DNA of 41,681 nt, taken from assembly GCA_947454425.1 (NCBI GenBank), contig CANGJV010000004.1, positions 1-41,681 on the forward strand, given 5' to 3'. The notes under the pieces are model-generated. The model searched no databases. It was not told where the DNA came from and saw only the letters and a program-made list of their open reading frames with translations. This document shows, piece after piece, positions 13 through 33,762 of this stretch. Position numbers and translations under genes: made by a program. This stretch comes from Candidatus Nanopelagicaceae bacterium. Lineage in GTDB: Bacteria; Actinomycetota; Actinomycetes; Nanopelagicales; Nanopelagicaceae. Within the stretch, counting starts at the first letter, position 1. Each line of letters begins with the position of its first letter.

Positions 13-1599
13 ATGAAGAAGTTAATCGCCACAGTATTGATTGCATCATTCCCGTTATTGAGCGCGGTGTCGATGGAGTCGTCCCATGCTGCAGTAAGCG
101 AGAGCGCATCTGTAACCATGCGCTTAGTCAGCCCCGCATTCTCTTCTCCCGATGGCGTACCTTCTAATTACGTAGATTTCAGCTCTGACCCAATCCAAAA
201 TAACTGGGCAAAGTACTACGGCCCTGGTCTTAAAGTTTATTACCGCTACTTTGATGTTGCTAGCGCTTTAACATTTAAGTGGCGCGTCACCGATACAACA
301 TCTGGATCTCCTCTTCCAAAGCAGCCAGTCTGGATGATTGTAAATAAGAACTACGGTGGAAAGCAGCTGGCAACATTTACCTACAAGGTAAACGGCGAAC
401 TGAAGACAATCGCTGCCCTCACCACAGATACAGGTGAGACACAGATTCCAGGTGAGACTGATGCTGATGGTTTTGTAACCTTTGAAATTCTTAATACCAA
501 TACATCTGAGCAAGCTGAGCCAGTTCCACCAGCTCTCAATCGAGAGCAACCAATCGGGACTCCGGCGCTGCTCTCACAAATTACTTTGACAACCCATCAA
601 CTCGGTGGCGCTACCGGTGGTGGCGACAATGGCGCTCTCGATGAAGAACTCGAGAACAAGGACCTCATCTGGGCTCACTTTGTAAAGTCTGCAGGTGGCA
701 CAACCCCTGTAGTAACGACTCCGGCGGTAGAAGTAAAAGATGTAACGATTCGTCTTCTGGAACCGGTCATGAGCAAAGATTCCAATGGAGATCCTGTTAA
801 CTACGCAGATTACTCATTCGACGCTAAGGCCAATGGCTGGGAGAAGTATTACGGCGCCGGAGTTGGCGTCTACTACCGCTACTTCCAGCCTGGTTCAACT
901 TTCACAACTAAGTGGAAGTTAACTGATTCAAAGAGTAAGGCCCCGCTAGCTAATCAAGATATCTGGTTAGTGATCAATAAGAATTACGGTGGAACTCAAT
1001 TAGGTTCATTTACTGCCACCTACAACGGAGTCGAGACTGTCGCTAAGGCGAGCAAGTCAGATACTGGCGAGACTCAGGTTCAAGGCAAAACAGATAGCAA
1101 TGGCGAAGTTGTATTTACTCTCAAGAATACAAATGCCCTCTCAGAGGCAGAGGCTTCTCCACCAGCGCTCAATCTTGCGCAGCCAGAGGGTGCAAAGTTG
1201 CTCTTCTCAAGTATCACTGTGACAACACATATCCCTGAGACCAAAGAGTCAAAGGACTTCCTTTGGGCACATATCGCTGAAGCAATTAAGGTTGCAATTC
1301 CAGTTAATAAAGTTGCGCCAAAGATTTCTGGCACTGCAAAGGTTGGACAGACGCTCAAGCTCAATGCAGGCACTTGGTCTGATACATCTAATGTAAAAAT
1401 TCAGTGGTTCGCTTGTAAGGCTAAGGCTGCTGCAGCAAACGCTGTTCCAGCAGGCTGTAAGGCAATCGCGGGTGCTACTAGTGCAACTCTTAAGATTGCA
1501 GCAACAAGTAAGAACTCATTTATCGTGGCACAGGTAAAGTCTTCTAACGCTGCAGGATCTGCCGAGAAAATCACCGCTTCTACAGTCAAGGTTGGATGA
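13..1599 (+). CDS. Exported protein with two copies of an unrecognised ~185-residue domain and a C-terminal Ig-like domain
   Basis: A Sec signal peptide spans about residues 1-27 (MKK, hydrophobic core, then SSHAA). Two tandem copies of one domain follow, at about 33-225 and 243-424. Both carry the same landmarks: N/GW-x-KYYG, VYYRYF, K-W-x-(V/L)TD, NKNYGG, DTGETQ, G-x-TD-x-(D/N)G-x-V-x-F, PPALN and a closing (I/L)WAH. The TD-x-NG-x-V-x-F element resembles bacterial Ig-like beta-sandwiches. Residues 434-527 form a different Ig-like module (APKISGTAKVGQTLKLNAGTW, QWFAC, IAGATSATLKI) of a kind common in actinobacterial surface proteins. AGGGAG at 1-6 is a good ribosome binding site for this ATG. 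The stop overlaps the start of the downstream GH16 gene by 4 bases, so the two are probably translated together. A role in cell-surface or glycan binding is inferred; no catalytic motif is visible. Confidence 0.85.
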   Translation: MKKLIATVLIASFPLLSAVSMESSHAAVSESASVTMRLVSPAFSSPDGVPSNYVDFSSDPIQNNWAKYYGPGLKVYYRYFDVASALTFKWRVTDTTSGSPLPKQPVWMIVNKNYGGKQLATFTYKVNGELKTIAALTTDTGETQIPGETDADGFVTFEILNTNTSEQAEPVPPALNREQPIGTPALLSQITLTTHQLGGATGGGDNGALDEELENKDLIWAHFVKSAGGTTPVVTTPAVEVKDVTIRLLEPVMSKDSNGDPVNYADYSFDAKANGWEKYYGAGVGVYYRYFQPGSTFTTKWKLTDSKSKAPLANQDIWLVINKNYGGTQLGSFTATYNGVETVAKASKSDTGETQVQGKTDSNGEVVFTLKNTNALSEAEASPPALNLAQPEGAKLLFSSITVTTHIPETKESKDFLWAHIAEAIKVAIPVNKVAPKISGTAKVGQTLKLNAGTWSDTSNVKIQWFACKAKAAAANAVPAGCKAIAGATSATLKIAATSKNSFIVAQVKSSNAAGSAEKITASTVKVG

Positions 1600-3233
1600 A
1601 CTTAAAAAGGTTTATCACTAGCGTTGCTGTACTCGCACTGCCATTTATTCTCTTAAGCAGCGGGTATTCGGCTGTAAAGGTTTCGCCGGGGGCTAAATGC
1701 TCAAAGGTTGGCCTTACCGCGACTCAAGCTGGGAAGAAGTACATCTGCGCAAAGGTTGGTAAAACTCTTCAATGGAGTTACCGCACCCCGGCGCCTGTGA
1801 TTACTGCTCCCCCTGTTCTTGTACCTGTAACCCCTGTTCCGCCGCTCAAAAGCGTTCGAGTCAGTATGAGAATTCAGGCTCCTACAATTGAGAGAAATGC
1901 CGATGGCACTCCAAAGAATTTCTATGACTTCTCTGCCAGCTCTAGAAATTCTGACTGGGCTATCTACTATGGCCCGCAACTCAATACATACCAAAGAAAC
2001 TTTGCCGCCGGTGAAACTTTTACAATCATTTGGAAGGTCACTGATGCAGATCTAGGAGTTCCTTTAGCAAACGAGAAAGTTTGGCTACTGGTAAATGGAA
2101 ATAGCGCTGGAAAACAGTTTGCAACCTTCTCTTATCAATTACAAGGTAAATCCGCGCTGGTTGCACCCCACAATAATTCAGGTAGCGGCGAGACTCAGAT
2201 TGCAGGAGTTACTGACTCGGCTGGCTTAGTTACTTTTACTCTTCGAAACCTCAACTACGGGACGACCGCAGATACTTGTTGCGCATCGGGAAGCTTCAAT
2301 CCGAATGTGCTCAACGCATTTTCAAATATCTCACTTACGACTAAACGTGACTACAAGAATGAAAATAGAGATTTCTTATGGGCAGATTTCGTCAACTCCA
2401 CAGGAAGTGCTGGACCAGAATATAAATTAATCTGGTCAGATGAATTCTCTGGTGGCGCAGGATCTGGAATTAATTCCAAGTTTTGGACGGGCCGTTACTG
2501 TGGGCAATCGCAAAGCAATGGTGGCGGAACTTGCCACAATAATGAATCACAGTACTTCACGCCTTCCGCGATTGCTCTCGATGGCAGTACCCAAGGAAAT
2601 GCAGTCATCACGGCTACTCGACTAACTGATAAACCTCTCAATGCAGGTGCATGTTTGAACGCGACTAACAATTGTCCATTTACGAGTGGTCGCTTTGACA
2701 CTCAAGGAAAAGTTTCTTTCCTCTACGGAAAGATTGAAGCCCGCATCAAAATGCCTGCAGGATCAGGTAATTGGGCTGCATTTTGGGCTTTAGGAAATAG
2801 CATCACAACCTCTGGCTGGCCTGTCTCGGGAGAGTTAGATATCGCCGAGCAATGGAGATTTCAGCCAACCCGGAACTCTGGCGCTATTCACTATTCCACC
2901 GGTGCCGATGGCTGTTGCGATAACCACACCTACGACGTCAGCGAAGTATATGGCCCTGATTATTCGTCAGATTTTCACACTTACTCGATGACTTGGTTGC
3001 CAAACTCTGTCACCTTCGCAGTCGACGGAGTGACTTTTTTAACCGAAACTTCGCTCACTGTGAGAACGACATTATGGCCTTTTAATCAACCAATCTTTTT
3101 GATCTTCAATAATGCAATCAGTGATCAAAACTCCAACTTCAATAAGTGGAGTGGCTGGAGCAGCTCCACCATGTCTATTGATTACGTCCGTGCCTACTCC
3201 ATTAATGGAATAGGTGCAGTAACTTTCCCTTAA
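1596..3233 (+). CDS. Secreted GH16 glycoside hydrolase (beta-glucanase/laminarinase-like) with N-terminal copy of the domain shared with the upstream gene
   Basis: A signal peptide (about 1-26) is followed by a short Cys/Lys module (residues 31-62, with GAKCSKVG, KKYICAKVG and LQW), a Pro/Val linker, and one copy of the upstream protein's domain at about 86-268 (SDWAIYYGP, WKVTD, GETQIAGVTDSAG, FLWADFV). The GH16 fold starts at about residue 276 (LIWSDEFSG) and runs to the end. The signature GELDIAEQW gives nucleophile Glu413, Asp415 and acid/base Glu418, so the hydrolase looks active. GH16 enzymes cut beta-1,3 or beta-1,3/1,4 glucans and related polysaccharides; the substrate here is unknown. 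ATG overlaps the previous stop (ATGA), implying translational coupling. The stop overlaps the convergent Bax-inhibitor gene by 4 bases. Planktonic algal glucan is a plausible but unproven substrate. Confidence 0.9.
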   Translation: MNLKRFITSVAVLALPFILLSSGYSAVKVSPGAKCSKVGLTATQAGKKYICAKVGKTLQWSYRTPAPVITAPPVLVPVTPVPPLKSVRVSMRIQAPTIERNADGTPKNFYDFSASSRNSDWAIYYGPQLNTYQRNFAAGETFTIIWKVTDADLGVPLANEKVWLLVNGNSAGKQFATFSYQLQGKSALVAPHNNSGSGETQIAGVTDSAGLVTFTLRNLNYGTTADTCCASGSFNPNVLNAFSNISLTTKRDYKNENRDFLWADFVNSTGSAGPEYKLIWSDEFSGGAGSGINSKFWTGRYCGQSQSNGGGTCHNNESQYFTPSAIALDGSTQGNAVITATRLTDKPLNAGACLNATNNCPFTSGRFDTQGKVSFLYGKIEARIKMPAGSGNWAAFWALGNSITTSGWPVSGELDIAEQWRFQPTRNSGAIHYSTGADGCCDNHTYDVSEVYGPDYSSDFHTYSMTWLPNSVTFAVDGVTFLTETSLTVRTTLWPFNQPIFLIFNNAISDQNSNFNKWSGWSSSTMSIDYVRAYSINGIGAVTFP

Positions 3234-4500: not shown

Positions 4501-5718
4501 TTATGGAGTGTCTTCAGTATATGGAACGTCTGAATATGTCCACATCTCAAAGAAATTCCGGATTGGAACTAGGCGACTTACTTGGTCTCCATAAGGGGTA
4601 AGCGAACCTATAGATGAATTATTTTGCAAGCTTCCATCTACGCTGAAGAATACGATGGAATTTGGTCCGCTGCCGTAAGGCATAAAGTAACCGGAATTTC
4701 CGTCAAAACCTAAGATGGTTCCTTCGGTACCCTCATTAGGATCAGTAGAACCAGAGAAGGAGAGAATGTTTTCGCTGCCAATATAAACAATTAATTTCCA
4801 ACGAGAATCACTAGGACGTCCAGCGTCGTAAACAAATTTCGCTGTTATTAGGTTTGATATTTGAGATCGGGTAAGTCCCGATGTTCCAATTTGGTTATTG
4901 AAATTATCAAGGTCTTCACTAGGGATATTTGCAATCCAATCACGTGCTGTAAAATATCCAGCGCAACCCATATCGCAACTTCCAGAGAAATTTCCACCTG
5001 GTAAAGCATCTTGGATATCAAAACCTCGCTCGAGGACACCTGATTCGATGAGAATTCCTAATTGAGATGTGGTCAGAATTCGATTTGCTAGAAGATGTGC
5101 ATCATATGTTTCTACCGTAATGCTTTTTACTGATTCTGCATTGGCGAGTGCGGTACGAACAATAGGTTGGGCATTGCTCGTCAAGTTTATTGTGAATGAG
5201 GTATTAGTAAGGTCTCTTCCTGGATCCCCCACATTGCCATCATTGACTATATCGTCACCGTCTGTTCCGCCACTTAACCAGCTAAAAACACCAGCGTTAT
5301 TGTAAATTTCAATTGAAGTGAAATCTTGATCTACTGAAGTGTCGTAATTTGTATAATTAAAAAGATTGAGCAGCCCACTATCGCCGTAAGCTCTTATCGT
5401 AAAAGTCTTACCTGAACATTTATCGGAAGAGCTATCAATCCCGCTTACCTTCAGCGAGGTAAGAAGACTCGAACCGGCGCCCACCTGATTGATAAAAGTT
5501 GAATAAGGGGTAATTGTAATTTGATTATCGCAGGCAACTATTCTTGTTACACCTTGACCAAATTCAACTGGTGCGCCTGAGTTCAAACTGATGTTTCCTG
5601 CAAAGGTCGTTCCAAAAGCGCCTAACCCAAGTAAGGCGAAGGCAGTGACTACATATTTGAGTTTGCCGGTTCTGCGCCCCAAATCAGCAGCGAAAGACTT
5701 TAACTTCGATAGAGGCAT
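4501..5718 (-). CDS. Exported protein of unknown function with N-terminal signal anchor
   Basis: A basic N-terminus (KLKSFAADLGRRTGKLK) precedes a hydrophobic segment at about residues 22-41 (YVVTAFALLGLGAFGTTFAG), then GNISLNSGAPVEFGQGV, which looks like the start of the mature protein. The first ~150 mature residues are beta-rich, with two cysteines (VACDNQITITPYS and DKCSGKTFTIRAYG) likely to form a disulfide. A further Cys pair (SGSCDMGCAGYF) sits mid-protein. The C-terminal half is rich in Gly, Ser, Asn and aromatics. I recall similar N-termini in other actinobacterial surface proteins but name no family. The frame extends 8 codons upstream to a TTG; I chose the ATG giving MPLSKLK because neither start has a strong ribosome binding site and TTG is rarer. 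It abuts the downstream 141-residue gene. Confidence 0.72.
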   Translation of the reverse strand: MPLSKLKSFAADLGRRTGKLKYVVTAFALLGLGAFGTTFAGNISLNSGAPVEFGQGVTRIVACDNQITITPYSTFINQVGAGSSLLTSLKVSGIDSSSDKCSGKTFTIRAYGDSGLLNLFNYTNYDTSVDQDFTSIEIYNNAGVFSWLSGGTDGDDIVNDGNVGDPGRDLTNTSFTINLTSNAQPIVRTALANAESVKSITVETYDAHLLANRILTTSQLGILIESGVLERGFDIQDALPGGNFSGSCDMGCAGYFTARDWIANIPSEDLDNFNNQIGTSGLTRSQISNLITAKFVYDAGRPSDSRWKLIVYIGSENILSFSGSTDPNEGTEGTILGFDGNSGYFMPYGSGPNSIVFFSVDGSLQNNSSIGSLTPYGDQVSRLVPIRNFFEMWTYSDVPYTEDTP

Positions 5719-5823
5719 AGGGGTAACTCTAGCGTTGTTCAATCGGTATAGATAGCGGACCTCGGAAGAGATAACTGCTTTTGGGGCCGTAAAAAATGAA
5801 CATATTGGCGCTCATATAGGGCA

Positions 5824-5867: not shown

Positions 5868-7607
5868 CTATTTCTTCTTATATCCCGCAGGACATTTAGG
5901 GCTTACTGCGGTGACTTTCTTAGTTAATTTTCCTTTCACGCAGGTAATGGTTAAACGGTCGGCAACTTTCACTTGTGGAAGAACTTTGCTTCCCAAAGAA
6001 ACACTGATGCTATTGGTGCTGTAGTGAAAACCAGATGCAGAGAAATTAACCTGACCATCTGACTTTCCTACTGAAGTTACGGCTATCTGTTTTTCCCCAT
6101 TAGCGTCAACAATGGAAATTGATGCATCGGCACCTAATTCTGAGGCTCCCCAAATGCACTTAGCGACATCATCGGAAATGCTTAAATTATAATTTCCAAG
6201 ATTTACATCTCCATTTTGCTTAAAATGAGTGCTGGCAATCTGGAAGTTTAATTTTCCGTTTGATTCTAATTTAGGCGGGCCTTGTACGAAAACTGTCGCA
6301 TTAGTTGAAATCAAACCACTAAACGACGGACTCGAGTTCATCTTAGACTTACATTTTGCTACCCAAGAGTCTCCAGAGTCTTCCAATGCGATAACAGAGA
6401 AATCCCAAAGAGTCTGCTCAATTGTTAAAGATGGATCGATGTATTTTTCAGTTGTTTTCCATTGATTTATAGATTCCCAGCCGGCCCCATTCCAGCTTTC
6501 TCCACCGCTATAATTGGTATCAATTCCCCAGTTTCGTTTCAAGTCTTCCAACCAATTTGCACCGTATTTTCCCTCGTCAAATGCTTTCTTGTGGGGACTC
6601 CCAGAAAACCAACTGTTGAAACCCTCTAATGTATGAGGAATGCGAGTGACACCTGCTTGTACTGCTGTTGGATATCCCTGGAATATCACCAAGGTTGGTT
6701 TTCCTTTACCTAATGACTTTGAATATACTCTGGAATCTTTGGTTCTGGACGTCACCCAATTAGCTAAATCTTTTTCTGTAAAGCTAGGCGATAGTTGCGT
6801 ATTAATCCGATACGAGACATTTTCGTCGAATTTGGTTTTTACCAAACAATAGTCATAAATTCCAGTATCAGGATTTGAGCGATTTAATGGGTGAAAATTA
6901 TTTCCTTGGAAAAAAGAGTCCCCGTATCCTGTGCGAGCACACCATGTCTCATCAGGATCCATCCCCGAGTACTGACTAGCATCTGAGACGGAAACCTCTG
7001 CGACTGGGGTTAGATTTAGGTTGAATTGGGTGTACCAGTGAAAGAGGGCGTCGTAACCGATAGATACAGAAGCTAAATATTTCTTACTGCCAGATTTTGT
7101 CTTAATTTCCCAAATGCTGCTTCTTGCAGAATCCAAGGGCCAGTTGCTGTCTCTTTTAGAATCGACATCACCACTGGCCCAATCCACATATCTATCTCGG
7201 TTGGATGTCTTAAAAGGCAACGTGGTTACGGGAAGATAATAAAGAAATTGCGCCTGAGACCAAAGTGAATCTTCCTCGCTCTTGAATTCTAAAGAACTAA
7301 TACAACGTTCCGTGATTTGTGTACTGCATTTTGGAAATACTGCCCTTGCCCAGTTCAAACTTGGAGAATTGGAATCAAATATCTCGGAGCTAGCTAAATT
7401 TGTGAACTCTGGATGTGGAGGTGTTTTCCATTGACCAACCCAGGTCAGTTGAAAGTATCCAGGAATCAAAGGCGCGTTATATGCAGGTGGCGAAAGATGA
7501 GGAGAGGTCGGAACTTCGGCTTCTGAGGTCGATGGGATCAGTAGAGTGGCAATTGCCAGGACGAAAATGGATGCACGCCTCATGGGTAGATGATAACGAA
7601 CGCGCAT
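5868..7607 (-). CDS. Large exported protein of unknown function with C-terminal Cys-Lys tail module
   Basis: A signal peptide is clear (basic MRRASIFVLAIATLLIPSTS, then EAEV). The mature protein is about 550 residues, rich in Trp, Tyr, Ser and Asn, with no catalytic motif I recognise. The C-terminal 27 residues form a distinct module: LTITCVKGKLTKKV, then SPKCPAGYKKK at the very end, with two cysteines and a strongly basic tail. The open frame runs back across the tRNA-Leu gene, so the real start must be later: ATG 7607, only 4 nt after the mature tRNA 3' end, or ATG 7583 (MRRASIF). Neither has a Shine-Dalgarno sequence. The gene probably shares the tRNA promoter and is freed by tRNA 3' processing. 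A surface or wall-associated role is inferred from the signal peptide and tail only. Confidence 0.75.
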   Translation of the reverse strand: MRVRYHLPMRRASIFVLAIATLLIPSTSEAEVPTSPHLSPPAYNAPLIPGYFQLTWVGQWKTPPHPEFTNLASSEIFDSNSPSLNWARAVFPKCSTQITERCISSLEFKSEEDSLWSQAQFLYYLPVTTLPFKTSNRDRYVDWASGDVDSKRDSNWPLDSARSSIWEIKTKSGSKKYLASVSIGYDALFHWYTQFNLNLTPVAEVSVSDASQYSGMDPDETWCARTGYGDSFFQGNNFHPLNRSNPDTGIYDYCLVKTKFDENVSYRINTQLSPSFTEKDLANWVTSRTKDSRVYSKSLGKGKPTLVIFQGYPTAVQAGVTRIPHTLEGFNSWFSGSPHKKAFDEGKYGANWLEDLKRNWGIDTNYSGGESWNGAGWESINQWKTTEKYIDPSLTIEQTLWDFSVIALEDSGDSWVAKCKSKMNSSPSFSGLISTNATVFVQGPPKLESNGKLNFQIASTHFKQNGDVNLGNYNLSISDDVAKCIWGASELGADASISIVDANGEKQIAVTSVGKSDGQVNFSASGFHYSTNSISVSLGSKVLPQVKVADRLTITCVKGKLTKKVTAVSPKCPAGYKKK

Positions 7608-7611
7608 AAAG

Positions 7612-7684
7612 TGCCCCCAGTCGGACTCGAACCGACACTGGAAGGATTTTAAGTCCTCTGTCTCTGCCATTGGACTATGGGGGC
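7612..7684 (-). tRNA. tRNA-Leu (anticodon UAA), short variable loop
   Basis: A cloverleaf folds on the minus strand: acceptor GCCCCCA/TGGGGGC, anticodon stem GAGGA/TCCTT around loop CTTAAAA (anticodon TAA), and T arm GTCGG-TTCGAGT-CCGAC. The discriminator is A and CCA is not encoded. The variable loop has 5 nt (CCAGT), whereas bacterial tRNA-Leu normally has a long arm. The D stem has only about three good pairs. The anticodon arm resembles other UUA-reading leucine tRNAs. The downstream exported-protein gene begins 4 nt after the discriminator base. Confidence 0.85.
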
Positions 7685-29573: not shown

Positions 29574-30863
29574 ATGATTGTTGCCATCGCTCCGCTACTC
29601 ATCGCGCTAGCTTCATTCCTCTTGCGAATGGTCAATATCGGATCTATTAAGAGTTTAATCTTTGATGAGGTCTATTACGTCGATGGCGCCCGAGATTTTT
29701 TGAAATATGGCGTTGAAGTCACAGGTTCAAAGCCAGAGTTTGTCGTTCATCCACCGGTCGGTAAATGGATGATTTCAATCGGTATCAAAATTTTCGGCGA
29801 CAACCCACTTGGATGGCGTTTTCTCACTGCGCTCGTTGGCTCGCTCATGATTCTTATAGTTGCACTCATCGCCCATCGACTTTTCTATTCTCCTTTATTG
29901 ACAGCTCTCGCTAGCGGATTAATGGCTGTTGACGGTCTAGCGCTAGTTCATTCTCGAACCGCATTGCTCGATAACTTCTTAGCATTTTTTATCCTGGTTG
30001 CAACATATTTCTTCATTGCAAAGAAATATTGGTGGAGTGGTTTATTCCTTGGCCTCGCACTAGGAACAAAGTGGAGTGCTCTATATTTCATCCTGGTCTT
30101 CGCCTTGATTGCGCTCTATCGTGCTTTTACACATCACACAGGACGTGATCTGTGGCGACCAACTCTTTCGCGAATTGGTGCCTTTGGATTTCTCCCTATT
30201 GCGGTCTACCTGACAAGCTGGTGCGGCTGGTTCTTCTCTGATCGAGGATGGGATCGCAATTATTCATCTAATGTGGTGAAGTCATTTATCCACTATCACC
30301 AAGAGATGCTTCGCTTTCACACCACCCTAACCGAAAAGCATAGCTACCAAGCAAATCCCTGGTCGTGGATGATTCTCGGAAGGCCGACAAGTTTCTATTA
30401 CGAATCACCAAAGAATTGTGGTGCAACTTCTTGTTCTCAAGAAGTCCTTGCACTTGGCACTCCATTCTTATGGTGGTTAGGAACAATTGCGATTGCAGTA
30501 GTTTTCGGGTTCTGGCTTCGGTCACTTCTCCATCGCAACTTTGATCCTGCGCTCACAATAATTATCTCTGGAATGGCTGCCGGATACCTTCCTTGGTTCT
30601 TTTTTCAGCAGCGGACAGTCTTTTCGTTCTATGCAATTATCTTCGAGCCTTTTGTAATTCTGGCGCTCGTTTATTGCGCACGAATATTTCTGACTTCGCA
30701 ACGACGTAAAGGCAATCGATCCTATTTACTTGGAGAAATTGGAATTTTGGTGGTCTTTCTTATGATTGCACTCAATTTCATTTACTTTTTGCCGCTCTAT
30801 CTAGGTGAAGTCACCACTTATGCATCATGGCATGCACATATGTGGTTTGAGAGCTGGATTTAA
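29574..30863 (+). CDS. pmt: Dolichyl/polyprenyl-phosphate-mannose protein mannosyltransferase (GT39)
   Basis: This multi-pass membrane enzyme moves mannose from polyprenyl-phosphate-mannose to Ser/Thr of exported proteins. The catalytic first loop reads LIFDEVYYVDGARDFL, with the DE pair, followed by HPPVGKWMISIGI and GWRFLTALVGS. About ten hydrophobic segments follow, with GTKWSALYFI and PWFFFQQRTVFSFYAIIFEPF in the usual order. At 429 residues it is somewhat shorter than typical actinobacterial PMTs (about 500), mainly in the N-terminal region. The arrangement divergent from rsmI is conserved in actinobacteria. The Ser/Thr-rich exported proteins in this window are possible substrates (inference). 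Confidence 0.93.
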   Translation: MIVAIAPLLIALASFLLRMVNIGSIKSLIFDEVYYVDGARDFLKYGVEVTGSKPEFVVHPPVGKWMISIGIKIFGDNPLGWRFLTALVGSLMILIVALIAHRLFYSPLLTALASGLMAVDGLALVHSRTALLDNFLAFFILVATYFFIAKKYWWSGLFLGLALGTKWSALYFILVFALIALYRAFTHHTGRDLWRPTLSRIGAFGFLPIAVYLTSWCGWFFSDRGWDRNYSSNVVKSFIHYHQEMLRFHTTLTEKHSYQANPWSWMILGRPTSFYYESPKNCGATSCSQEVLALGTPFLWWLGTIAIAVVFGFWLRSLLHRNFDPALTIIISGMAAGYLPWFFFQQRTVFSFYAIIFEPFVILALVYCARIFLTSQRRKGNRSYLLGEIGILVVFLMIALNFIYFLPLYLGEVTTYASWHAHMWFESWI

Positions 30864-30873
30864 TTCTTAAGAA

Positions 30874-31650
30874 TTACTGATTGGCCGCGCGGTTAATACG
30901 TAGACGCTCAACTGCTTCATCGGCTAATTGCTGATCGAAAATCTCATCACGTGAAGGAGCTGCAGCTGCAAGTGCTGCGAGTTCGAGCGCTTCTTGCTCA
31001 TCGCTCCACTTTCCTGGTTCGGTGAGATCGATGACGCGCTTAGGTTGAATAGCTTTCGCGGCACTAACGTATGTAGGAAGCGGAATTTCATTAGGTTGCC
31101 ACTCTGCACGAGCCGCAGCAGTTCCCTTAGGCAAAATCGTGACGCCACCAATTTCGCGCTCTGCAAATGGAATCCATTGTTCAGTTGAAATCTTTGGAGA
31201 AATAACTTCAGAGAGATTTGTGTGGGAGACACCTTCGGTGCGGCGATGAATCTGATCCATACGGCGATGTTGAATTGCCTCTACATTGGCTTGTCTACGG
31301 ACACTGGCTACATAAATTATTAGTCCCGTAATTGGAAGCAATATTGAAGTAAGTGCGAGAGTCTGCATGACAACTCCTACGATCGTAGATATTAAGGTAA
31401 ATGTGATAATTGAAAAGATGATTCGGCGGCGTAAAAGAGTCTGAGCAACACGTGCAACTCGATCGACATCTGTGTAGATAACTCCACGGCCAACAATTGC
31501 ACCAGGGGTGTTTCCGGCGACCGCACGCAGCGCGCTCTTGTAATTTTCAACATGTTTTCCTGAGAATTCATTTTTATTGTGCATCCAGCGAGGCAAGAAG
31601 TAGGCAACCCACATCCCTGCTATCGCTAGATAAATAATTCCCGACGCCAT
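30874..31650 (-). CDS. SepX/GlpR-like actinobacterial division membrane protein
   Basis: The N-terminus SGIIYLAIAGMWVAYFLPRW (TM1, about 4-20) resembles the start of SepX of Streptomyces and GlpR of Corynebacterium as I remember them. Two more membrane helices lie at about 77-95 and 98-116. They follow a cytoplasmic segment (NYKSALRAVAGN) and precede a long C-terminal tail (residues 117-258) with an Ala/Glu-rich end. In those species the protein joins the divisome and GlpR recruits the gephyrin-like Glp. Here it is the last gene of a glp-GNAT-sepX run with the MoeA-like gene two positions upstream, which supports the call. TAATCT lies 9 nt before the ATG. Confidence 0.72.
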   Translation of the reverse strand: MASGIIYLAIAGMWVAYFLPRWMHNKNEFSGKHVENYKSALRAVAGNTPGAIVGRGVIYTDVDRVARVAQTLLRRRIIFSIITFTLISTIVGVVMQTLALTSILLPITGLIIYVASVRRQANVEAIQHRRMDQIHRRTEGVSHTNLSEVISPKISTEQWIPFAEREIGGVTILPKGTAAARAEWQPNEIPLPTYVSAAKAIQPKRVIDLTEPGKWSDEQEALELAALAAAAPSRDEIFDQQLADEAVERLRINRAANQ

Positions 31651-31702
31651 GATGAGCCAAGATTAGTTGGATGGCCTTAAAACTCTTGGGATTTACGAGG
31701 GT

Positions 31703-32278
31703 TTATTTCACTAATTCATTAACTCTGACAAAGGTTTTATGGTCTCGCCAAGCCCCAGAGATATGGAGAAATTCAGGCCGATCTCCTTCAAATTTATATC
31801 CCGCTTTTTCGGCGACTCGGATAGATGCATCATTTTCGGGGCGGATATTTATCTCGATCCGGTGCAGGCCGAGCTCTTCAAAAGCGAAGCGGGTCAATGT
31901 ATTTACAGCATCTGTTGTAAAACCGCGACCGGCATAGTTGCGGTCAATCCAATATCCGATATGTGCGCCACGAAGGGCGCCGTAGATAACGCCCCCCATC
32001 GTGATCTGTCCAACGAGGTTGTTATCTCTCCACACCATAAATGAATACGCCCGGCCTGCCTTTGCCTCACGATGTATTGCCCGCACCATCGAATAGAAGG
32101 ATGGTCGCTTGTTTAAGAATTCGCCGGTTGGAGCTGAAACTGGTGGCTTAGGTCGAGAAGCTTCCCACGGTGCAAGCCACTCTTTATTTTCGGCACGTAC
32201 GCGATCCCATTGCGCACGATCCCTCAAGCGAGGTGGGCGAAGTTCAATCTGCTCACCGATGAGGGTTGTAGGCCACAT
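31703..32278 (-). CDS. GNAT acetyltransferase, RimJ/RimL type
   Basis: This acetyl-CoA-dependent N-acetyltransferase has a RimJ-like layout: LIGEQIELRPPRLRDRAQWD at the start, NNLVGQITMGGV, HIGYWIDRNYAGRGFTTDAV containing the acetyl-CoA loop (RNYAGRG), LHRIEINIRPENDASIRVAE, and KAGYKFEG. Length is 191 residues. Related enzymes acetylate ribosomal-protein N-termini, but the substrate here is unknown. It lies 5 nt after the MoeA-like gene and 52 nt before sepX; this glp-GNAT-sepX order is common in actinobacteria. Confidence 0.92.
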   Translation of the reverse strand: MWPTTLIGEQIELRPPRLRDRAQWDRVRAENKEWLAPWEASRPKPPVSAPTGEFLNKRPSFYSMVRAIHREAKAGRAYSFMVWRDNNLVGQITMGGVIYGALRGAHIGYWIDRNYAGRGFTTDAVNTLTRFAFEELGLHRIEINIRPENDASIRVAEKAGYKFEGDRPEFLHISGAWRDHKTFVRVNELVK

Positions 32279-32283
32279 GATTG

Positions 32284-33195
32284 TTAAATGTAACGACGTT
32301 CTAGAACGACGACAGTGACTTCAGTGCCGGCAACTAATTCTGCTTCACCTTCTGGGACGGCGATAAAGGCGTTGGCATCGGACAAAGTTGCTTGCTCATC
32401 TTGTGAACCGAGCGGCAACACCGATTTACCATCTTCGCTTAAAACTGCGCGAACATACGAACGAACTCCGGAGACTGATGTGAGCGCCTTCTCGAGTTTT
32501 GCTTTCACTGAAGGTCGGTGAATCGTTGCAGCACCAAGCATTGTGCGAATCATTGGGCGGACCAAGAGTTCGAAGGATATGTATGCCGCAACCGGGTCTC
32601 CTGGCAGGGTTACAACTGGAGTTTTATCCGGTCCGATAGTGCCGTAGTTATGTCGGCCACCAGATTCAATTGCAATTTCGACTGCCGAAACTTCGCCAAA
32701 CTTCTGCAATGTACGAGTAATCAAATCAAAGGAATCATCATGGCGCTCACCACTGATGATTATTAAATCAGCACGGACAAGTTGATCCTCAATGGCATTT
32801 TGCAACTGATCCTCATTTTCTGGGATCGAGTGGACTCGATATGCAACCGCCCCAGTCTCACGGACAGCAGTTGTTAATAACCAGGAATTAGTTTCGTACT
32901 CTTCGTCACCCACCAAATCAATCCCCGGTTCCACTAAATCTGGACCAGCTGAGATGACAACTACTCGTGGATGTGGGCGGGTGGGGAGATGATCAAGTCC
33001 GATAGATGCAGCAAGACCAATTTGGGTTGATCGAATGCGGCTTCCGGATTTCATTACCAAGCGATCTCCGGCATAGATATCTTCCGAAAGTGTGGCCCCA
33101 TGCGCATCAAGGAGAGGCATATCAAAAGGCTCAAGCGGGCGGCAGAGATTTAATAAAGAGGTAAGGACCTCATCAACGCGCGCACGATCGGACAT
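32284..33195 (-). CDS. Gephyrin/MoeA-like protein (Glp type) lacking domain II
   Basis: The sequence aligns by eye to MoeA/gephyrin but is only 303 residues; MoeA has about 400. The N-terminal domain I part ends at GATLSEDIYAGDRLVMKSGS and passes straight to RIRSTQIGLAASIGLDHLP. The ~110 residues of domain II and the DNSAMDGYA-type active-site segment are absent. Domain III keeps RVVVISAGPDLVEPG and VVTLPGDPVAAYISFELLVRP, but the molybdopterin-site motif SGGxSxG is replaced by SGERHDD (residues 148-154). Domain IV follows from about 228. It sits upstream of GNAT and sepX, the arrangement of the Corynebacterium division protein Glp. A scaffold role in division rather than molybdenum insertion is inferred. 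ATG is 8 nt after a TAAGGT. Confidence 0.82.
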   Translation of the reverse strand: MSDRARVDEVLTSLLNLCRPLEPFDMPLLDAHGATLSEDIYAGDRLVMKSGSRIRSTQIGLAASIGLDHLPTRPHPRVVVISAGPDLVEPGIDLVGDEEYETNSWLLTTAVRETGAVAYRVHSIPENEDQLQNAIEDQLVRADLIIISGERHDDSFDLITRTLQKFGEVSAVEIAIESGGRHNYGTIGPDKTPVVTLPGDPVAAYISFELLVRPMIRTMLGAATIHRPSVKAKLEKALTSVSGVRSYVRAVLSEDGKSVLPLGSQDEQATLSDANAFIAVPEGEAELVAGTEVTVVVLERRYI

Positions 33196-33240: not shown

Positions 33241-33762
33241 ATGGCTATCAATCGTGCAGATGCTAAGCAAGGTCTGCGACGACGCCTACGTGCGCAACGT
33301 GAAGAGCGTTATGTAGAGCACACACTTTTGCATCTGCTCGATATTCCTGAGATCGCTCGAGCTGAAGTAGTTGCTTCATATTTTGCTTATGGAACCGAAC
33401 CCAATACCGCTGAATTAAATCAAGCACTTATCTCAGCGGGTAAGAAATTGTTTCTTCCCCGCATCAATAAAGAGGTTATCGAATGGGTTTTATGGGATGG
33501 AAATCTTGATGCACTTGAGCAAAATGGAAATTTTAAAGAGCCAATTGGTTCCCCGCTTAATGATGTGAATTTAATTGATCTTGTCTTAGTTCCAGCACTT
33601 GCAATTGATCCTGATGGATTTCGACTAGGACAAGGCGGCGGCTTTTATGATCGCGCTTTGCCAGGTATGAGGGCGTGGAAGCATGGCGTTGTCTATAACT
33701 ATGAACGGATGGAACATGATCTGCCGCGAGATTCTTGGGATATCGCAGTCGATAGTTGGTAA
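33241..33762 (+). CDS. 5-formyltetrahydrofolate cyclo-ligase
   Basis: The enzyme converts 5-formyl-THF to 5,10-methenyl-THF with ATP, recycling folate. The signature FRLGQGGGFYDRAL (ATP/Mg site) is near residue 135. The N-terminus has AKQGLRRRLRAQREE, and VASYFAYGTEPNT and KLFLPRINKE are conserved. Length is 173 residues. The binding site AGGGGA is 5 nt before the ATG. It is divergent from the MoeA-like gene (45-nt gap) and its stop abuts the convergent acyl-CoA dehydrogenase stop. Many actinobacteria have galU here; it is absent. PurU further along also acts on formyl-folates. Confidence 0.94.
   Translation: MAINRADAKQGLRRRLRAQREERYVEHTLLHLLDIPEIARAEVVASYFAYGTEPNTAELNQALISAGKKLFLPRINKEVIEWVLWDGNLDALEQNGNFKEPIGSPLNDVNLIDLVLVPALAIDPDGFRLGQGGGFYDRALPGMRAWKHGVVYNYERMEHDLPRDSWDIAVDSW

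Follow-up and report, generated by a model that had tools for sequence, protein, structure and literature searches.

What does a MoeA-like protein do once its enzyme domain is gone, and why does its gene lie next to that of a SepX/GlpR-like membrane protein? Gephyrin and Glp are the standard cases of an enzyme fold turned scaffold. The window, by which we mean the whole 41,681-nucleotide stretch analysed here, is contig C4 of a 1.27 Mb genome (G000; 99 contigs, 88% complete) from the streamlined freshwater actinobacteria (Candidatus Planktophila-like, Nanopelagicaceae), which are dominant lake bacteria.

The locus and the missing domain

The minus strand of the window carries a run of three genes, as the first-pass annotation had described it. 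The first encodes a Glp/MoeA-like protein of 303 aa with domains I, III, and IV only (32284..33195). A RimJ-like GNAT acetyltransferase, a conserved member of the locus, begins 5 bp downstream (31703..32278, minus strand) and is followed by the gene for a SepX/GlpR-like membrane protein of 258 aa with a short first loop (30874..31650, minus strand). Upstream of glp lies a divergent gene for 5-formyltetrahydrofolate cyclo-ligase (33241..33762, plus strand), a neighbor that glp keeps throughout the class, and a PMT mannosyltransferase gene (29574..30863, plus strand) converges on the run from its downstream side. The order MTHFS-Glp-GNAT-GlpR is conserved in the loci read. Elsewhere in the window, three long open reading frames of 528, 600, and 413 aa (13-1599, plus strand; 5868-7670 and 4501-5742, minus strand) have no Pfam match at 1e-4, and a GH16 glycosyl hydrolase-like frame (1596-3233) directly follows the first of them.

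That annotation had also claimed that domain I runs on without domain II, that the AMDG motif is lost, and that SGGxSxG has become SGERHDD; alignment confirmed all three. Among Pfam profiles, the protein covers MoeA_C in full and MoCF_biosynth almost in full, while MoeA_N is matched over its last 28 positions only, at 15.9 bits against a cut-off of 30.8. The Glp model NF045515, an NCBIfam equivalog with a cut-off of 475 bits, is matched at positions 138-403 only and with 264 bits, which is below that cut-off. The domain II columns (46-140 in E. coli MoeA) hold 95 residues in E. coli MoeA and 108 in Corynebacterium glutamicum Glp (8bve) but only 2 in the window protein, and AMDG is absent for that reason. 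Across all aligned rows, short forms have 1-2 residues in these columns and full-length forms 84-120, with no intermediates.

The first half of domain I, PLEPFDMPLLDAHGATLSEDIYAG (33067..33138, minus strand; aa 20-43), includes the proline-rich hinge 1 region and ends at the domain II junction, and it is fused straight to the second half, DRLVMKSGSRIRSTQIGLAASIGLDHLPT (32980..33066, minus strand; aa 44-72). Roughly 85-100 residues of domain II are missing at this joint, aa 43/44. In C. glutamicum Glp, domain I consists of residues 20-45 and 146-181 and domain II of residues 46-145 (PMC10522489). Alignment to a full-length Glp from the same family breaks into two segments, window residues 7-40 to 8-41 with 59% identity and 27-301 to 127-404 with 46%, the pattern expected of an internal deletion. 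Both proline-rich hinges between domains I and III are present. Hinge 2 is of the Glp type and clear (RPHPR within LPTRPHPR, 32965..32988, minus strand; VPVIRKVR in E. coli MoeA), and hinge 1 (RPLEPFDMP) is a weaker discriminator. SGERHDD lies at 32734..32754 on the minus strand. What marks a MoeA enzyme, namely a domain II that carries AMDG together with acidic and basic catalytic residues, is not found in the window protein.

An AlphaFold2 model of the window protein built with 14 orthologs (pLDDT 88.9, pTM 0.85) corresponds to MoeA and Glp structures in domains I, III, and IV alone. VIA-align aligned it to 8bve over 292 of 398 residues (Z 31.2, identity 30%) and gave a Z of about 28-33 against MoeA, Cnx1E, and gephyrin E. 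Two Glp entries rank first in Foldseek, and 8bve is also the top PDB sequence match. The window protein shares MoCF_biosynth, MoeA_C, and the overall fold (Z about 30) with E. coli MoeA and the gephyrin E domain but, unlike them, has neither domain II nor AMDG nor SGGxSxG, and no molybdenum cofactor (Moco) pathway was found in its genome. No description of a MoeA or Glp without domain II was found in the openly readable main texts of the literature searched, in keeping with the earlier suggestion that this minimal form is undescribed.

Descent of the short form

The window protein is an ortholog of the corynebacterial divisome protein Glp, by tree and by gene order. In a MoeA tree, it falls in the clade of 75 Glp rows, apart from four MoeA outgroup rows (99/98). 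A 25-row Nanopelagicaceae clade, in which short forms and the full-length Glps of genera g8 and g15 stand together, has support of 100/100. In the same tree, which was built without the domain II columns, the closest named relatives of the window protein are from Candidatus Planktophila sp. With C. glutamicum Glp (Cgl0883; 8bve/8bvf; PMC10522489) it shares the tree clade, the order MTHFS-glp-GNAT-glpR, hinge 2, and the fold of domains I, III, and IV; it differs in having 303 rather than 417 aa, no domain II, and a hairpin that is four residues shorter and lacks M361 and Y369.

The short form is not peculiar to the window. The Glp model matched in 150 of 151 genomes of the order, a sample and not an exhaustive set; four of these matches are full length (g8 and g15) and almost all others are short, so that short Glp is found in 13 of the 15 genera and in about 146 of the 151 genomes sampled. 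At the level of the class, two more short forms occur outside the Nanopelagicaceae, G239 (family f5) and G288 (family f39), in genomes of 1.4-1.5 Mb. Among the named relatives of the G288 form (L148-L152), one is titled Candidatus Nanopelagicales. G239 forms a long branch, and its position beside the full-length forms of f5 is supported at 100/100. The short and full-length states require three changes on the tree, forced by well-supported branches. Constraining all short forms together cost 81 log-likelihood units, and a single origin was rejected by the AU test (p-AU 3.1e-5). Short Glp therefore has at least three origins, all of them in small-genome actinobacteria.

Putative division partners

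We consider it likely that the window protein is a Glp ortholog minus domain II that acts as a homodimeric scaffold for the membrane protein SepX/GlpR, and probably for FtsZ, at the septum, with no molybdotransferase activity. The partner is nearly always present, GlpR being found in 148 of 151 genomes. The window's SepX/GlpR-like protein matches NF050099 (NCBIfam) below the curated cut-off (1.5e-23, 84 bits against 150) and has two features of this type, namely its place after glp-GNAT and two C-terminal motifs that are common to actinomycetes, PxPTYVxAPKA...R.IDL...W and an RRAVNE-like end. Both are kept. The first is EIPLPTYVSAAKAIQPKRVIDLTEPGKWS (31003..31089, minus strand), a candidate Glp-contact peptide, and the second is the extreme C-terminus RINRAANQ (30877..30900, minus strand; consensus RRAVNE); judged by their conservation, the two are candidate contacts for Glp. 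With Streptomyces SepX (PMC8748795) and Corynebacterium GlpR, the protein shares an N-terminal and paired central membrane segments as well as these motifs, whereas its first cytoplasmic loop has about 50 residues compared with about 190 in C. glutamicum GlpR.

The first-pass annotation had proposed a MoeA fold reduced to its FtsZ-binding scaffold. The structural part of this proposal held, with domains I, III, and IV retained, no active site, and a Glp ortholog paired with SepX/GlpR; FtsZ binding is putative. FtsZ of the window genome ends in a canonical C-terminal peptide, EDEIDVPDFMK, close to the peptide DDLDVPSFLQ that was crystallized with Glp. In domain IV, the counterpart of the hairpin with which C. 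glutamicum Glp binds FtsZ (32410..32463, minus strand) has 18 residues in columns where C. glutamicum has 22; at the loop M361-Y369 it reads LSEDGKSVL, and it offers no equivalents of Met361 and Tyr369. In most other orders, the same hairpin has 20 residues with the Tyr, and in Streptomyces 16 without it. The FtsZ-binding loop M361-Y369 as defined in Corynebacteriales is found neither in the window protein nor in other orders of the class. Because the window protein lacks both this loop and the four-domain (I-IV) architecture of Corynebacteriales Glp, domain II being absent, we class it as a Glp-derived variant rather than a standard Glp.

It is possible, though in our judgment unlikely, that the short protein keeps binding to GlpR or another partner but not to FtsZ, and is recruited to the septum via GlpR or SepF. 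The shortened hairpin with its lost side chains in Nanopelagicaceae would fit, as would the retention of GlpR with its C-terminal motifs and the presence of SepF (12 of 12 genomes searched). However, C. glutamicum Glp contacts FtsZ in part through beta pairing between backbones, and that loop is also required for GlpR (PMC10522489). Hairpins of other orders differ in length and sequence too, so that the signature seen in Corynebacteriales may not hold throughout the class. We keep to a scaffold that would hold GlpR and probably FtsZ, and we infer that it dimerizes and serves division through these contacts.

How the pair works must differ in some respect from the corynebacterial model, since DivIVA was not found. 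A search for DivIVA (PF05103) gave no match in ten Nanopelagicaceae genomes, while it scored in the C. glutamicum control, G288, and G239. The slot between yggT and ileS that divIVA usually occupies has closed in G000, G002, and G035, and in G288 it holds DivIVA. The slots lie at L228 (G000:C39) 2936-3224, L229 1250-1542, and L230 1287-1580, and at 1533-2384 in the DivIVA-bearing L231. Unlike in Corynebacterium, where DivIVA/Wag31 is present, the proposed Wag31 link is thus probably absent from the family of the window organism.

Molybdenum cofactor genes and a proposed origin of the short form

The first-pass annotation had noted that no other molybdenum cofactor gene is visible near the locus, and this was borne out across the genome: moaA, moaC, and a PF02738 molybdoenzyme were not found in the window genome (88% complete), nor was any MoCF-domain protein besides the short Glp. 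The near-complete genomes of the same genus searched alongside it (G001-G005 and G010) were likewise found to be without moaA, moaC, and PF02738. These absences bear on whether the short protein is still an enzyme, either a minimal MoeA or one with a new substrate in the MoCF domain pocket. The MoCF_biosynth fold and the acidic positions equivalent to D142 and D259 (E. coli numbering, as below), which persist in many short forms, could be read in this way. However, the loss of domain II took D59, T100, and R137 with it, Q mostly stands in place of S371 and E in place of K279, and with the Moco genes not found in the window genome, we regard such an activity as improbable.

The protein might also be a functionless moeA remnant, decaying in a shrinking genome. 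The small genome without Moco genes would agree with this, but the short form is near-universal in 13 genera, strongly conserved, and always accompanied by GlpR, its fold is predicted with confidence, the reduction is repeated in three lineages, and neither relaxed selection nor frequent frameshifts are seen. dN/dS of short glp is 0.05-0.08 in two pairs (it could be computed in two of seven, synonymous sites being saturated in the other five), and the short Glp is under purifying selection. Because it occurs in nearly all genomes of 13 of the 15 genera with such a dN/dS, the short form is not due to chance or a frameshift, and we hold decay to be very improbable. An assembly or gene-calling artefact (frameshift or chimera), for which one could cite the 99 contigs of the window genome, has practically no chance of being correct, as the same open frame without internal stops is present in many single-contig genomes and domain II is all-or-none; complete genomes, dN/dS, and the confident fold rule out artefact and pseudogene alike.

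Returning to the scaffold, we sought the circumstances of domain II loss in a Moco survey run family by family. moaA scored above the cut-off in 53 of the 151 genomes. A full-length Glp is missing from 49 of these, 45 of which have two or more MoeA-profile matches, in counts that may include fragments; we take this to mean a separate MoeA in those 45 genomes. In the loci read, the separate MoeAs keep [S/A]MDG and often lie on the same stretch as moaA. In g8 and g15, moaA, moaC, and PF02738 molybdoenzymes are present and the full-length Glp is the only MoeA-family match. Glp thus stays full length where the genome depends on it as its MoeA. The loss of domain II as a simple result of present-day Moco loss is rejected by the 49 moaA-bearing genomes without full-length Glp, 45 of them with a second MoeA-family match. 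The idea that domain II loss follows Moco loss thus stands in a modified form, decided by whether Glp is the sole MoeA, and fails in its original one, as the loss is not confined to Moco-free genomes.

Other families show further combinations. In f39, G288 (short) is without moaA, and G297 (full length) has it. Family f5 lost moaA, yet most of its members keep a decayed domain II, so that domain II loss is not obligatory. The f5 loci L132-L136, from genomes without moaA, encode full-length Glps whose domain II site is decayed (KVDG/AVDG, T100 to A). It is possible that these Glps are a stage between an intact domain II and its loss. In some short-Glp genomes, a separate full-length MoeA, moaA, moaC, and a PF02738 molybdoenzyme share a contig (L059, G107:C19, 1951-3255 and surroundings), perhaps a regained Moco island.

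The neighbors of full-length glp tell more about its active site. The usual order across the class is galU-glp-moaC-mog-GNAT-glpR, as in g8 (L057, 7009-11435) and in L153 (3001-5791). In a count that includes some repeated loci, 59 of the 76 full-length loci with a visible GNAT have moaC and/or mog between this gene and glp, as against none of 108 short loci. All 54 unique Glps with moaC/mog keep D59, T100, R137, E188, D228, D259, R350, and S371, and 51 of them have [A/S]MDG. In the 17 full-length Glps without moaC/mog, T100 is lost in 15 and [A/S]MDG is found in none. A fully intact catalytic set is present in 54 of 54 Glps with adjoining moaC/mog and in 0 of 31 without, an agreement in 85 of 85 unique sequences, although moaC adjacency and active-site state involve four tree changes only, too few for a significant phylogenetic sign test. 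The operon and the intact MoeA site suggest that Glp is still an enzyme in most actinomycetes. Catalysis was previously inferred to be lost in Glp as a group, based on a limited sample of Actinobacteria (PMC11733289); judged by their residues, the moaC/mog-linked Glps qualify that inference. That moaC adjoins glp is not discussed in the text of PMC10522489 or of the SepX paper (PMC8748795), and no literature on the moaC/mog linkage of glp was found among openly readable main texts.

A history can be proposed from these patterns, although the order of its steps is our inference. An actinomycete ancestor would have had a galU-moeA/glp-moaC-mog-GNAT-glpR operon in which one gene did both jobs. 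With Moco synthesis lost or handed to another MoeA, moaC and mog would have left the operon, after which the active site of Glp may have eroded. In at least three small-genome lineages, domain II would then have been removed, while the scaffold part and GlpR stayed. The short Glp would now hold membrane SepX/GlpR, and probably FtsZ, at the septum via domains III and IV. We give about even chances to the whole of this broader reading, in which Glp normally has two jobs, as an active MoeA and in division with GlpR, becomes a pure scaffold only where Moco synthesis was lost or moved, has dropped domain II in at least three lineages, and in the window organism works without DivIVA.

The repeated loss of the active-site domain suggests that the protein can serve division without its enzyme part. 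A lineage-wide form without the enzyme domain, with three independent origins, is a natural experiment on what a scaffold requires. The prediction is that division can proceed without domain II and that the enzyme site is intact in most full-length actinomycete Glps, as it is in the 54 that adjoin moaC/mog. If this is true, the window protein would amount to a naturally occurring deletion in which division and catalysis are uncoupled, working without DivIVA, and Glp-GlpR would be a candidate pair of division factors for the very abundant acI freshwater actinobacteria, in which DivIVA was not found.
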